From IMG/VR virus record IMGVR_UViG_3300033388_002136, positions 1 through 34,595 of that record: a stretch of 34,595 nucleotides of DNA; one strand, 5' to 3'. The first letter of the stretch is position 1, and every line of letters begins with the position of its first letter. The DNA is from a virus. Shown in pieces: positions 29,671-34,277 of this stretch. The position numbers and the translations under genes were made by a program. Below the pieces are notes generated by a model that worked only from the letters and a program-made list of their open reading frames with translations, was not told the DNA's origin and searched no databases.

Positions 29671-29937
29671 ATGAAAAGACGATTATTTTTACAGGGTTTA
29701 TTGGGGGCTAGTGCTTCGCTTCCTGTATTAGCTAAGGTTCCTATAGAGGAGCGGCCTGTTTTAGATGTTAAGGCTATTTCAGAGAAGGTATCCGGGAATA
29801 CAATAATTACTCCCAGCCAGATTACCAGAGAAGCGTTAGAGGTCTACAATGAAAATCTCCAGTGGTCTGCTGCTGAACAAGCGGTTTTACGAGGAAGAAA
29901 AAGCCCGCCTTTAGAGATAAATCGTATAACACGATAG
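29671..29937 (+). CDS. Exported small protein with Tat-like signal (88 aa)
   Basis: MKRRLFLQGLLGASASLPVLA is a short signal peptide with twin arginine followed by LFLQG (Tat consensus is S/T-RR-x-FLK) and an Ala-x-Ala-like end. The mature part is about 65 residues, soluble, with no recognised domain. A phage protein sent through Tat would be unusual; a Sec signal remains possible. Confidence 0.5.
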   Translation: MKRRLFLQGLLGASASLPVLAKVPIEERPVLDVKAISEKVSGNTIITPSQITREALEVYNENLQWSAAEQAVLRGRKSPPLEINRITR

Positions 29938-29979: not shown

Positions 29980-32346
29980 ATGCCTATGTCAAAAGAACGA
30001 TTACACCAATTACTTACTGAGAAAGCCAAAGCCCTTAAATACGACAAACTGAGAAACTTCGACCCTTACGTGTGGCAGCAAAAGTTTGTTAACGACAAGG
30101 CGATGTCAAAAGGACTGCGCTGTGGAAATCAGCAAGGAAAATGCACTTCGTTTAGTACGGTTATTAATACGTCATCTGGTAAGAAACGGATGGGTGATAT
30201 ATTTGGTACTGAATGTGAGGTATTAACCTTTCCCGACAAGGAGCCGAGAAAGGTCTTAGGATGGGTTAGGAAGCCTAAAGAAGAGTGTTTTAGAATTACG
30301 ATGTCGGATGGCCAGTGGATTGAGTGTCCAAAAGGACATCGAATTTTGGTCGGGTCTGACTACCTCTTTGTTTCAGAGATTTTACAATCGCTTCCCGACA
30401 GCGTCTTTTTCCGTCAGGAGTCCACTTTGGGCATTTGCCGGTTAATTCATGCTTTAGATGTTCGGCGTTACTACCAAAGACTGCTAGATTATCTGGATGA
30501 TTATTTAGTGGATCGCCGTCTATGTGATGGACAACTTCTTTCCGACCAAGATAGCGTCCAAGTTTTTGCTCCATTACAAGACGATGCTCAGAAACATAAT
30601 TGCCTCTGGTTTTATTTGGATGGTTTGGCGAGTAAATGTACAAATATCCTTTCACGAGGCAAGTACCGCCTTTCCAATCTGGGTGACGCTCTCCGGACTT
30701 CGGCCCAGTACGTTGTTTCTTCAAACCAAATCGTTTCATCCGGCTTTCGATCGTTCTTCGATGACAGCCAAAATGGTCAGCTATCAAACGGGTTTGAATG
30801 TCATCTGCAACCATTTGACGTAATACCTCTACATCTATCTGAATCTTATCAGTACCCATTATTATCTCCTGTATCCGTATGTGGAAACCATATTGTATCA
30901 ATCAAGTCGGTTGGCTTCAAGACTTTATATGATATGGAGGTTGAGGGGAGGCATAACTATATTGCAGGCGGAATGGTTCATCACAACACATACGTTGGTT
31001 GCGCTGCTGATGCTTTTGACCTAACTGGGGAATACCCTGATTGGTATGTGGGGCATAAATTCACCCATCCTGTAACGGTAGTTGTTGGTTGTATCAATAA
31101 TGATAAAACCCGCGATATCCTCCAAAAAGAGCTTTTCGGTAATCCGATTGAGTGGGAGAAAGAATTAGGGACTGGCTGGATACCCAAAAGGTGTATAGGG
31201 AAGATACAGAAGAAACGCGGAGTCCCAGATGCCTTTTATAATGTAAGGATTAAACACTTCACGGATGGGGTTTTTGATGGATGGTCACAAATCGTCTTCT
31301 TAGCTTACGAAATGGGTAAGGCGACATGGATGGGACATAAAGCCCACGTTACCCATTTAGACGAAGAACCCCCTGAAGAAATTTTAGAGCAGGCATCACG
31401 AAGTTCTATCGCCACCAGTGGCCGGATCAGGATTACATGGACTCCTGAGAACGGAATGACCAAAGTAGTAAAATTGGTTCAGGATAAATGGAGTATGCAC
31501 ACAGCAGAATGGGCTGATGTTGCGGGAGAAGACTTCACTATTGAGGTTGAAGGAGAGGAGTTCGAGTTTAAGACGGTTTACACGTTGAAAGGTCGAAAAG
31601 GACATCTTGATAAAAAGAGCGTTCTTTCTGCCCAAACAAATATTCTCCCTTATCAGATGAAGATGAGGATGAGAGGAATACCCGTTCTAGGTTCAGGTTT
31701 GGTCTTTGCTTACCCTGAAGACCAGATTAAATGCGAGCCGATGTCATTTCCAGACCATTTCTTATTTCTGGACGCTTTAGATTTTGGTGGATTGAGTTCA
31801 ACGGCTCATCCAACAGCCTTCGTGAGAACCGCATACGACCCTGATAATGACGTTATATACATCTATGACGGATTTCGCTTAAAAGGCCGTGAGATACCTG
31901 AGATTGCCTCTCACATCATAATGAAGCCTAATGCCGACATTATTCCCGTAGCGTGGCCGCATGACGGTAATAAAATCACTGGTCAGGGACAGTCTACAGC
32001 CGATCAGTATTTAGCTGCTGGTGTGAATATGTACGAGACTTTTGCTACTAATCCTCCGGCTGAGAATCAGATCGAAGGCAAAGGCGGGATTCAGATAATG
32101 CCCGGAATTACGGATATGTCTACGAGAATGGCAGATGGACGTCTTAAAGTCGTAAACACAGTAAATGATTTTTTTGAGGAATTTAGACAATATCATATGA
32201 AAGACGGAAAAATAGTCGATGTTGATGATGATTTTATGTCTGCTACACGATACGCAGTTATGTTTAAGAGATTTGCGGTTAAATTAGAGCAACCAAAGCC
32301 TTATGTGTCGAGTTTTGAGAATGTTGGCGGGTGGATGAGCGCATGA
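29980..32346 (+). CDS. terL: Terminase large subunit (TerL) with intein in the Walker A motif
   Basis: 788 residues before splicing; removal of residues 55-336 gives a 506-residue TerL. The N-extein ends GNQQGK (residues 49-54), and T337 completes the Walker A lysine-threonine. Walker B is VTHLDEEPP (D461-E462), with TWTPENG as the coupling motif. The nuclease half has D598 and D601 (LDALDFGG), KITGQGQSTADQY and a DVDDD cluster (747-751). TerL pumps DNA into the capsid and cuts it. The start may be ATG 29980 or 29986; no ribosome site is clear. The intein must splice for ATPase activity. Confidence 0.88.
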   Translation: MPMSKERLHQLLTEKAKALKYDKLRNFDPYVWQQKFVNDKAMSKGLRCGNQQGKCTSFSTVINTSSGKKRMGDIFGTECEVLTFPDKEPRKVLGWVRKPKEECFRITMSDGQWIECPKGHRILVGSDYLFVSEILQSLPDSVFFRQESTLGICRLIHALDVRRYYQRLLDYLDDYLVDRRLCDGQLLSDQDSVQVFAPLQDDAQKHNCLWFYLDGLASKCTNILSRGKYRLSNLGDALRTSAQYVVSSNQIVSSGFRSFFDDSQNGQLSNGFECHLQPFDVIPLHLSESYQYPLLSPVSVCGNHIVSIKSVGFKTLYDMEVEGRHNYIAGGMVHHNTYVGCAADAFDLTGEYPDWYVGHKFTHPVTVVVGCINNDKTRDILQKELFGNPIEWEKELGTGWIPKRCIGKIQKKRGVPDAFYNVRIKHFTDGVFDGWSQIVFLAYEMGKATWMGHKAHVTHLDEEPPEEILEQASRSSIATSGRIRITWTPENGMTKVVKLVQDKWSMHTAEWADVAGEDFTIEVEGEEFEFKTVYTLKGRKGHLDKKSVLSAQTNILPYQMKMRMRGIPVLGSGLVFAYPEDQIKCEPMSFPDHFLFLDALDFGGLSSTAHPTAFVRTAYDPDNDVIYIYDGFRLKGREIPEIASHIIMKPNADIIPVAWPHDGNKITGQGQSTADQYLAAGVNMYETFATNPPAENQIEGKGGIQIMPGITDMSTRMADGRLKVVNTVNDFFEEFRQYHMKDGKIVDVDDDFMSATRYAVMFKRFAVKLEQPKPYVSSFENVGGWMSA
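30296..30859 (-). CDS. HNH homing endonuclease encoded antisense inside the TerL intein
   Basis: 187 residues from the ATG at 30859, which has AGGAG six bases upstream. An N-terminal HTH (about 20-48, IQTRLIADHFGCHRRTIESR) is followed by the family signature HPDWKGG (59-65), GYLYIYSPNHPN, NYVSEHRLVMEQKLGR and the HNH core EVVHHIDGDPLNNHPDNL (H111, H112, D114, N124) with H134 and H137. The basic tail KRRCREAIVKSLKQR is also typical. The last 20 or so residues are read from the intein N-terminal domain. A complete, ordinary homing endonuclease; only its position is odd. Confidence 0.88.
   Translation of the reverse strand: MGTDKIQIDVEVLRQMVADDIQTRLIADHFGCHRRTIESRMKRFGLKKQRTGPKSGERHPDWKGGTCLVKGYLYIYSPNHPNKTRGNYVSEHRLVMEQKLGRYLGRKEVVHHIDGDPLNNHPDNLAVFGSNAEHLKHELTGKCPKWTPDGKRRCREAIVKSLKQRGSQTRPKFDVLLDTQSTGHPTS
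30892..30920 (-). promoter_or_regulatory. Sigma70-like promoter of the antisense HNH gene
   Basis: On the minus strand TTGAAG (30920-30915) and TACAAT (30897-30892) are 17 bp apart. The start would be near 30885, about 26 nt before the HNH ATG, leaving room for its AGGAG site. It overlaps the coding sequence of the intein C-terminal splicing domain. Confidence 0.65.
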
Positions 32347-34277
32347 CTGACGAAGAAATCATTGAAGAAGCGGTAAAACGCTTTAAAATCGCCGTTGATG
32401 CCGAATCCCTAAACCGTGAACTAGCGTTAGACGACATAAATTTCAGGAATGGCGATCAGTGGGAAACAGGGATAAAACAGGAAAGGGAAAGAGAAGGACG
32501 GCCTTGTTTAACGATTAATAAATTAGAACAAAGAGTCGATCAAGTCACTGGCGATCAACGCATGAACCGCATGGGGGCTTTAATTCGACCTCTGGACTCA
32601 ACCAATTCCTATACCGAAAGAGTAGAGGGCGCTAATTTCACTCTCGCTCAGATTTATCAGGGAATTATTAAAAATATCGAAAATGTGTCTAATGCAAAAT
32701 CTGCCTACGACATGGGATTTGACCACGCTGTAGGCCACGGGTTTGGATATTGGTCGATTTACACCGAATACAACGATGATGACTCTTTTGACCAAGATAT
32801 TAAGATTCGAAGAATAAATAACTCCTTTAGGGTGTATTTAGACCCCTCTGCGGAAGAAGTCACTAAAATAGACGCTATGTGGGGCTTTATTACTTCTTTT
32901 GTTGATAAAGAAGAATACCCCAACGCTAATTGGGAAAGAGGTCGCGGTGAACACCATGAACTATGGTATGAAGGAGAGAAAGTTCGTATAGCGGAATATT
33001 TCCGTAGAGTAGAGATGGAAATAATCATCTGGAAGACCTCTGATGGACGTGTTTTGAAAGTAAAAGACGACTTCATGGACATTAGGGACGAGCTTATTGC
33101 AGAAGGGATTACGCGCGTAAAAGAAAGAAAAGGGACTACTTATAAAGTAGAATGGTATGAGCTAAGTACTAATGAAATTTTCAGTAAGACCGATTTTCCT
33201 TCTAAATACATCCCGATTATCCCTTGTTATGGAAAAGAACTAAACGTAGATGGAAAAACCATTTATCGTGGAGTTATAAGGTACGCAAAAGACCCCCAGA
33301 GAATTTATAACTATACAAGAACTGCGAGTGTAGAACAGGTTGCCCTTGCACCTAAAGCTCCGTGGGTTATCGAAGAAAGCCAAATTGGCAACCATAAGAA
33401 AATGTGGGATACGGCCAATGTTAAAAACCATGCTGTTTTACCTTATAAGAATAAACCCGGTGTTCCGCCACCTCAAAGACAGGCTCCTCCTCAACCCTCT
33501 AGTGGGTGGTTAGCAGAAAGCTCAATATCAGATCAGGACATAGACGCTTCTTCTGGTCTTTATAAGGCTTCTCTTGGTGCACCCTCAAATGAGAGATCAG
33601 GTAAGGCGATTAACGCCCGTAAGATCGAAGGAGATGTAGGGACTTATCATTTTCACGACAATAGAGCTTTAAGTCTTCAGCATACCTATGAAATTTTAGT
33701 AGACATGATTCCCCGTGTTTATGACAACGACAGGATTGTAAGAATCAAAACCCCTCAAGATAAAGAGGAGATGATTAATATCAATCAGGAAATATTTGAT
33801 GATGAGTCTGGATGGGTAAAGATATACGACCTTTCTCAAGGTAAGTATGACGTTACCGTAGACATAGGCGCAAGCTACACCACTCAGAGAGAATTAGCCT
33901 CCGAAGGTATGAAAGAGACTCTACAGTACGCTCCTCAACTAACACAAAAGCTACTCCCACTTATTGCCAAGAATTTAGACTGGCCGGGTGCTGATGACAT
34001 TGTAGACGTCTTAAAAGAAGATGAAATTACACCAGAGCAAGTACAGCAGGCAGTAGAACAAGCCGTACAACAGGCTCTTGCTGGTCAAGAGTACCAAGTC
34101 AAGCAATTTGAAGCCCAGACTAAAAGACTTACCGCAATGGGTAGTATCGAAAACGATGAAGAAAATCTTAAAGTCGAGCTTCTAAAAGTTATGGAATCTG
34201 CCGAAATATCAGATCAGGAAGTCCATACAAGAGCAGTAGAATTAATCAACCAAATAGGTGAACCACAACAACAATAG
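32343..34277 (+). CDS. P22-family portal protein
   Basis: 644 residues. Start at the ATG overlapping the TerL stop (ATGA). The N-terminal part (LNRELALDDINFRNGDQWET, then LTINKLEQRVDQVTGDQRMNR) is typical of P22-type portals, and the C-terminal 100 residues are Gln/Glu-rich helix (QQAVEQAVQQALAGQEYQVK), like the long portal barrel. Portals form the dodecameric gate at the capsid vertex and bind TerL. Order TerL-portal-scaffold is that of P22. Confidence 0.85.
   Translation: MTDEEIIEEAVKRFKIAVDAESLNRELALDDINFRNGDQWETGIKQEREREGRPCLTINKLEQRVDQVTGDQRMNRMGALIRPLDSTNSYTERVEGANFTLAQIYQGIIKNIENVSNAKSAYDMGFDHAVGHGFGYWSIYTEYNDDDSFDQDIKIRRINNSFRVYLDPSAEEVTKIDAMWGFITSFVDKEEYPNANWERGRGEHHELWYEGEKVRIAEYFRRVEMEIIIWKTSDGRVLKVKDDFMDIRDELIAEGITRVKERKGTTYKVEWYELSTNEIFSKTDFPSKYIPIIPCYGKELNVDGKTIYRGVIRYAKDPQRIYNYTRTASVEQVALAPKAPWVIEESQIGNHKKMWDTANVKNHAVLPYKNKPGVPPPQRQAPPQPSSGWLAESSISDQDIDASSGLYKASLGAPSNERSGKAINARKIEGDVGTYHFHDNRALSLQHTYEILVDMIPRVYDNDRIVRIKTPQDKEEMININQEIFDDESGWVKIYDLSQGKYDVTVDIGASYTTQRELASEGMKETLQYAPQLTQKLLPLIAKNLDWPGADDIVDVLKEDEITPEQVQQAVEQAVQQALAGQEYQVKQFEAQTKRLTAMGSIENDEENLKVELLKVMESAEISDQEVHTRAVELINQIGEPQQQ

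Follow-up and report, generated by a model that had tools for sequence, protein, structure and literature searches.

Background

Non-canonical inteins are reportedly present in phages, as set out by Gosselin et al. in 2025, and Dassa et al. are said to have described fractured genes, split inteins and free-standing endonucleases in 2009. Fractured genes resemble the locus analyzed here in that an endonuclease gene lies between two intein halves, but in them the host gene is broken into two parts, whereas our locus has one continuous ORF. The TerL inteins of mycobacteriophages (PMC5050341) and of Mic1 (PMC7156551) are canonical large inteins with an in-frame endonuclease. They too have HINT halves at TerL NTPase motifs and an endonuclease encoded between blocks B and F, yet the enzyme, a LAGLIDADG protein in the mycobacteriophages, is translated within the precursor. 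In the intein described below, by contrast, the enzyme is an HNH protein, encoded antisense as a separate product that appears to have its own promoter-like sequence and ribosome site. The two-intein TerL of Mic1 was considered as a further example and set aside as conventional, with no antisense ORF of at least 90 aa.

Two other systems come close. The ShiLan type consists of HNH genes hidden out of frame within insertions in phage methylases (Arsenault et al. 2025, PMC11855218). As in our case, the HNH gene occupies another frame of an insertion that is open in the host frame, and the prediction for the in-frame product has poor confidence; however, the HNH gene is on the same strand, without splicing domains and without a detectable ribosome site. 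Our locus falls outside that type, since its HNH gene is antisense and HINT halves are present. For I-DsqI (PMC9548176), homing endonuclease genes lie antisense in nuclear group I introns. The endonuclease gene is likewise antisense to a self-splicing element, but that element is an RNA intron in eukaryotic rDNA, the enzyme is of the His-Cys family, and there is no second open frame to preserve. No earlier antisense endonuclease gene in an intein was found in the literature covered, from which subscription papers and bioRxiv were mostly absent.

The terL intein and its antisense HNH gene

The window, by which we mean the whole stretch analyzed, is a virus record of 34,595 bases. Its plus strand carries a terL ORF of 788 aa (29980..32346), in which PF17289 matches the C-terminal TerL nuclease domain (5e-12). 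An in-frame intein of 282 aa, running from C1 to HN282 (30142..30987, plus strand), splits TerL at Walker A (GNQQGK|C...HN|T). The interrupted motif reads GNQQGK|T; in the intein-free homologue from Pelagibacter phage Baldr, the P-loop is continuous (GNRVGKS). The PF14890 intein match (E 2.6e-6) is under the curated cut-off, and the intein profile searched against solved structures hit the DnaB mini-intein 1mi8 with an E-value of 1.9e-15, the top PDB matches being DnaB, DnaE and gp41-1 inteins. Besides being inserted in frame, the intein has C1, H281-N282 and T+1, and C1, H281 and N282 occur without exception across 23 inteins.

AlphaFold modeling divided the intein into three parts, all on the plus strand. 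The N-terminal HINT half (residues 1–91; 30142..30414) has pLDDT mostly 83–95, falling to 72 in its final block of ten, and the C-terminal half (residues 246–282; 30877..30987) has pLDDT 80–92. The linker between them (residues 92–245; 30415..30876) is open, unconserved in the alignment and predicted to be disordered. Residues 1–91 and 246–282 are thus confidently predicted to fold as HINT, with pLDDT mostly <50 over the 154 residues between. An in-frame endonuclease within the intein is ruled out, the linker being unconserved and predicted disordered and the HNH gene lying on the opposite strand.

That gene (30296..30859, minus strand; ATG at 30859, stop at 30296) encodes a 187-aa protein with an N-terminal HTH followed by HNH_3, and at its 3' end the gene runs into the code for the N-terminal splicing half of the intein. 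The protein matched PF13392 at 6e-10 and PHROG HNH families down to 1e-25. Its DNA-binding part is represented by weak HTH matches and a three-helix N-terminus, so that it combines an HNH motif with a DNA-binding domain, as HNH homing endonucleases do. When the HNH model was searched by fold, no match reached significance; the nearest, weakly, was the homing enzyme I-HmuI.

The minus-strand sequence carrying the start signals is CTTGAAGCCAACCGACTTGATTGATACAATATGGTTTCCACATACGGATACAGGAGATAATAATG. A –35 element, TTGAAG (30920–30915), is followed after a 17-nt spacer by an extended –10 element, TGA TACAAT (30892..30900, with TG at 30900–30899 and TACAAT at 30897–30892). Transcription would be expected to start at 30885, ∼7 nt past the –10 element. 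The ribosome-binding site AGGAG (30870–30866) lies 6 nt before the ATG, with a duplex energy of –7.4 kcal/mol, and the ATG (30859–30857) starts 33 nt past the last –10 base. The original prediction had named TTGAAG-17-TACAAT, AGGAG and ATG within code for the C-terminal domain of the intein. These motifs and their coordinates are exact on the minus strand, and the placement is borne out: the hexamers lie opposite the code for the C-terminal splicing block, the C-terminal HINT half containing the promoter-like sequence.

Recurrence in related inteins

Using the HNH protein and its alignments as queries, we searched viral contigs and prokaryote genomes, and sorted loci by the position of intein blocks relative to HNH. 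An HNH gene was found antisense inside one uninterrupted intein ORF at 160 loci, which form 101 clusters at 85% nucleotide identity. Both intein blocks belong to the same ORF in all 153 loci that have both, and the remainder nearly all end at contig ends. A split intein or fractured gene is therefore ruled out, as a single ORF spans all 153. The phase is the same in 160/160, intein codon position 1 pairing with HNH position 1 and intein position 2 with HNH position 3. None of the 160 loci has HNH in frame between the intein blocks. A search seeded with the intein returned 61 inteins with antisense HNH, four HNH-less mini-inteins (132–144 aa) and none with in-frame HNH, counts that do not give a frequency among all inteins because the seed came from the same family. 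The mini-inteins (loci L326, L327, L321 and L324) have HHN ends and lack both the HNH gene and the antisense promoter.

Most host genes are TerL; among the insertion points in terminases are the P-loop (GK|T, x|SGK and GGRG|SGKS) and the Walker B region. Three hosts encode helicases instead: one of the strawberry-notch type (L110), one of the SNF2 type (L193) and one DEAD helicase (L019). Two loci of the Walker-B type (L031 and L034) have HNH first and a long C-terminal part, as opposed to HTH then HNH in the window type; both domain orders share the same antisense phase. Another locus (L122:956-5332, minus strand) carries an ORF of 1459 aa that matches Hint/intein around residues 437, 874 and 1343, which looks as if a single gene contained more than one intein. 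In Xanthomonas phage phiL7 and MW202481, HNH is free-standing and on the same strand as its neighbors, and these loci were placed outside the antisense class.

Taken over this set, inteins with an antisense HNH gene, and with its promoter within the codons for the C-terminal splicing block, probably form a large undescribed class of mobile inteins, in which the same bases would specify a splicing-block peptide on one strand and a promoter on the other. Antisense coding of HNH looks like a widespread and overlooked way for inteins to carry the enzyme that spreads them.

A promoter-like sequence in the C-terminal splicing block

Simple counting of consensus matches was dropped as promoter evidence, the counts not being above chance: 32 matches of the 9-of-12 class were found in 10 kb, versus 25.5±6.2 in shuffled sequence, which means that such a match is not in itself unusual. 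Sites were scored instead with a sigma70-type matrix of approximate E. coli frequencies, which may differ from those of the hosts. By this measure, the window promoter is the 8th best site on both strands of the 34.6-kb window and outscores 98.5% of the sequences obtained by recoding the intein protein synonymously (p=0.015). The Shine–Dalgarno site alone did not differ significantly from recodings (p=0.13). Taken on its own, the window sequence is only suggestive of a promoter signal above chance. The site is nonetheless judged to be more than chance, because it recurs in relatives and is absent from four kinds of control.

Across the family, the best site upstream of the HNH start has a mean score of 10.2 on the approximate E. 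coli matrix, versus 7.8 under synonymous recoding (Fisher p 3e-30, a value that, like the other Fisher p-values, overstates independence because the loci are related). Upstream of HNH, 54/99 cases score at least 10; in the first two extein windows the figures are 1/99 and 0/99, and extein windows 250–650 nt away show no excess over recodings. When only local synonymous codons were permuted, the HNH strand had p 8e-25 and the intein strand p 0.99. No promoter excess was seen in 37 conventional inteins (z=0.005) or in the four mini-inteins of the same family (p 0.27–0.52). When the loci are clustered at 60% HNH identity, 32/36 clusters remain positive (p 2e-6); a 50% threshold leaves only 3 clusters, too few for the test to have power. 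Some sites are perfect or near-perfect, such as TTGACA-16-TATAAT (L031 and L034) and TTGACA-18-TATAAT (L010). The sites thus have sigma70-type hexamers and spacing and exceed chance on the HNH strand specifically, with family p of ∼1e-24 to 1e-30.

Shine–Dalgarno pairing is stronger than in recodings (p 1.6e-5), and the HNH start codon is ATG in 93/101. HNH starts were picked partly by Shine–Dalgarno strength for the promoter test, though not for the Shine–Dalgarno test itself. These comparisons, over ∼100 related inteins, back the proposal of the original prediction that the HNH gene has what appear to be its own promoter and ribosome site.

It could be argued that the HNH gene is real but read from minus-strand promoters elsewhere, the hexamers being chance matches favored by the amino acids of the C-block. 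Null scores in the C-block are already high (7.8 versus 5.2–6.1 in exteins), so the protein sequence there does predispose to promoter-like sites; moreover, only 40% of loci have an individually significant promoter (p<0.05), about 60% do not, and the best site in Pectobacterium phage Ymer is weak (7.1). Yet the excess persists with the protein sequence fixed, is restricted to the HNH strand, and is missing from conventional inteins and related mini-inteins. The position of the –10 element within the intein also varies with site class, ∼30 residues from the intein end in GK|T inteins and ∼10 in Walker-B inteins, and promoters therefore arose in different places, probably more than once. On this evidence we consider read-through with chance hexamers unlikely. 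An AT-rich C-block was rejected as the source of the signal: two synonymous nulls, the opposite strand, exteins, and conventional and mini-inteins all speak against it.

Selection on the two frames

We compared the HNH body in 29 related pairs, a set that includes the same phage pair three times. Differences at HNH codon positions 1, 2 and 3 numbered 791, 605 and 1639, a skew from which it follows that purifying selection maintains the HNH protein and not the linker encoded on the intein strand. The intein frame is nevertheless free of stops across the HNH body in 101/101 clusters; were only the HNH protein preserved, with its codons redrawn synonymously, each locus would be expected to have 5.6. 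For the window, 6.4 stops were expected and 0/300 simulations left the frame open. In the two remaining antisense frames, the mean number of stops is 9.3 and 5.3. Hence, the intein frame must be read through. At four loci (L002, L009, L089 and L101), HNH contains in-frame stops and the intein frame is intact. Some HNH copies are therefore degenerate, as expected from decay of a homing gene.

On a tree of 152 HNH rows, antisense versus free-standing placement requires 6 state changes, compared with 42.8 after shuffling, and insertion-site classes cluster. The scatter of insertion sites and hosts, together with this clustering by site, hints indirectly at homing.

HNH proteins associated with packaging are already known, reportedly from the work of Kala et al. 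in 2014, which PMC10448857 cites, and hosts of the antisense HNH are mostly TerL genes; the enzyme might accordingly serve the packaging motor, like the terminase-adjacent HNH of the HK97 gp74 type, its place in a terL intein being incidental. Several results make this very improbable. The identical arrangement occurs in the three helicase genes, the HNH protein bears an HTH and weakly resembles I-HmuI, four copies are broken by stops, and the site classes group on the tree as expected of site-specific enzymes. That the antisense transcript acts instead as an RNA that lowers early terL expression, the HNH protein being secondary or dead, would suit the geometry, which makes every such transcript a complement of terL mRNA, but is a most remote prospect given purifying selection on the HNH protein frame and the maintenance of ATG starts and Shine–Dalgarno sites.

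A probable free endonuclease nested in a mobile intein

The locus is thus likely to be a mobile intein whose HNH endonuclease is encoded antisense as a free protein, apparently with its own promoter and ribosome site. The homing endonuclease would be a separate protein made from the opposite strand of the linker rather than an intein domain. On the plus strand, terL would be translated straight through the intein, and the two HINT halves would join, splice and throw out the disordered linker, which would be nothing more than the HNH gene read antisense. Expression of the free HTH-HNH endonuclease from the minus strand would be driven by the sigma70-type promoter within the codons of the C-terminal splicing half, together with the Shine–Dalgarno site. 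The enzyme's most likely targets are terL alleles without the intein in co-infected cells, and repair of the cut would copy the intein together with the nested HNH gene. Transcription, splicing, empty-site cutting and homing are steps that we infer.

A transcript from ∼30885 would necessarily complement ∼590 nt of terL mRNA, a regulatory role for which is only a possibility. The original prediction had also proposed that early expression would uncouple the nuclease from late terL transcription and yield RNA antisense to terL mRNA; by geometry, early timing and an effect of this RNA on terL are possible.

If this reading is true, inteins need not fuse the endonuclease into the spliced precursor, and the nuclease can be made independently of host gene expression. 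Such loci would then provide many natural examples of double-coding DNA, with a promoter, a ribosome site and two proteins written in shared bases. The same reading would account for TerL proteins annotated as 'hypothetical' and for HNH genes that went unnoticed in phages of the Ymer group and PHS3.

Among cultured phages, whole-HNH matches were found in seven Pectobacterium phages and in Dickeya phage Setonix, and such phages could show whether the nuclease precedes TerL. In Ymer (L231, OP748252.2), the 754-aa intein-bearing TerL ORF is labelled 'hypothetical protein' and the antisense HNH is unannotated. In Pseudoalteromonas phage PHS3 (L232, KX912252.1), HNH is annotated and terL is annotated as truncated, starting after the antisense HNH; the terL frame actually continues through the intein, giving 708 aa. 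PHS3 has TTGACA-17-GATAAT 31 nt before the HNH ATG.

In the window, an 88-aa ORF just 5' of terL (29671–29937, plus strand) opens with what looks like a signal peptide, and over its last 35 residues it resembles positions 19–52 of the P22 portal family (PF16510, E 8e-5). A full portal gene lies downstream of terL, at 32331–34277.
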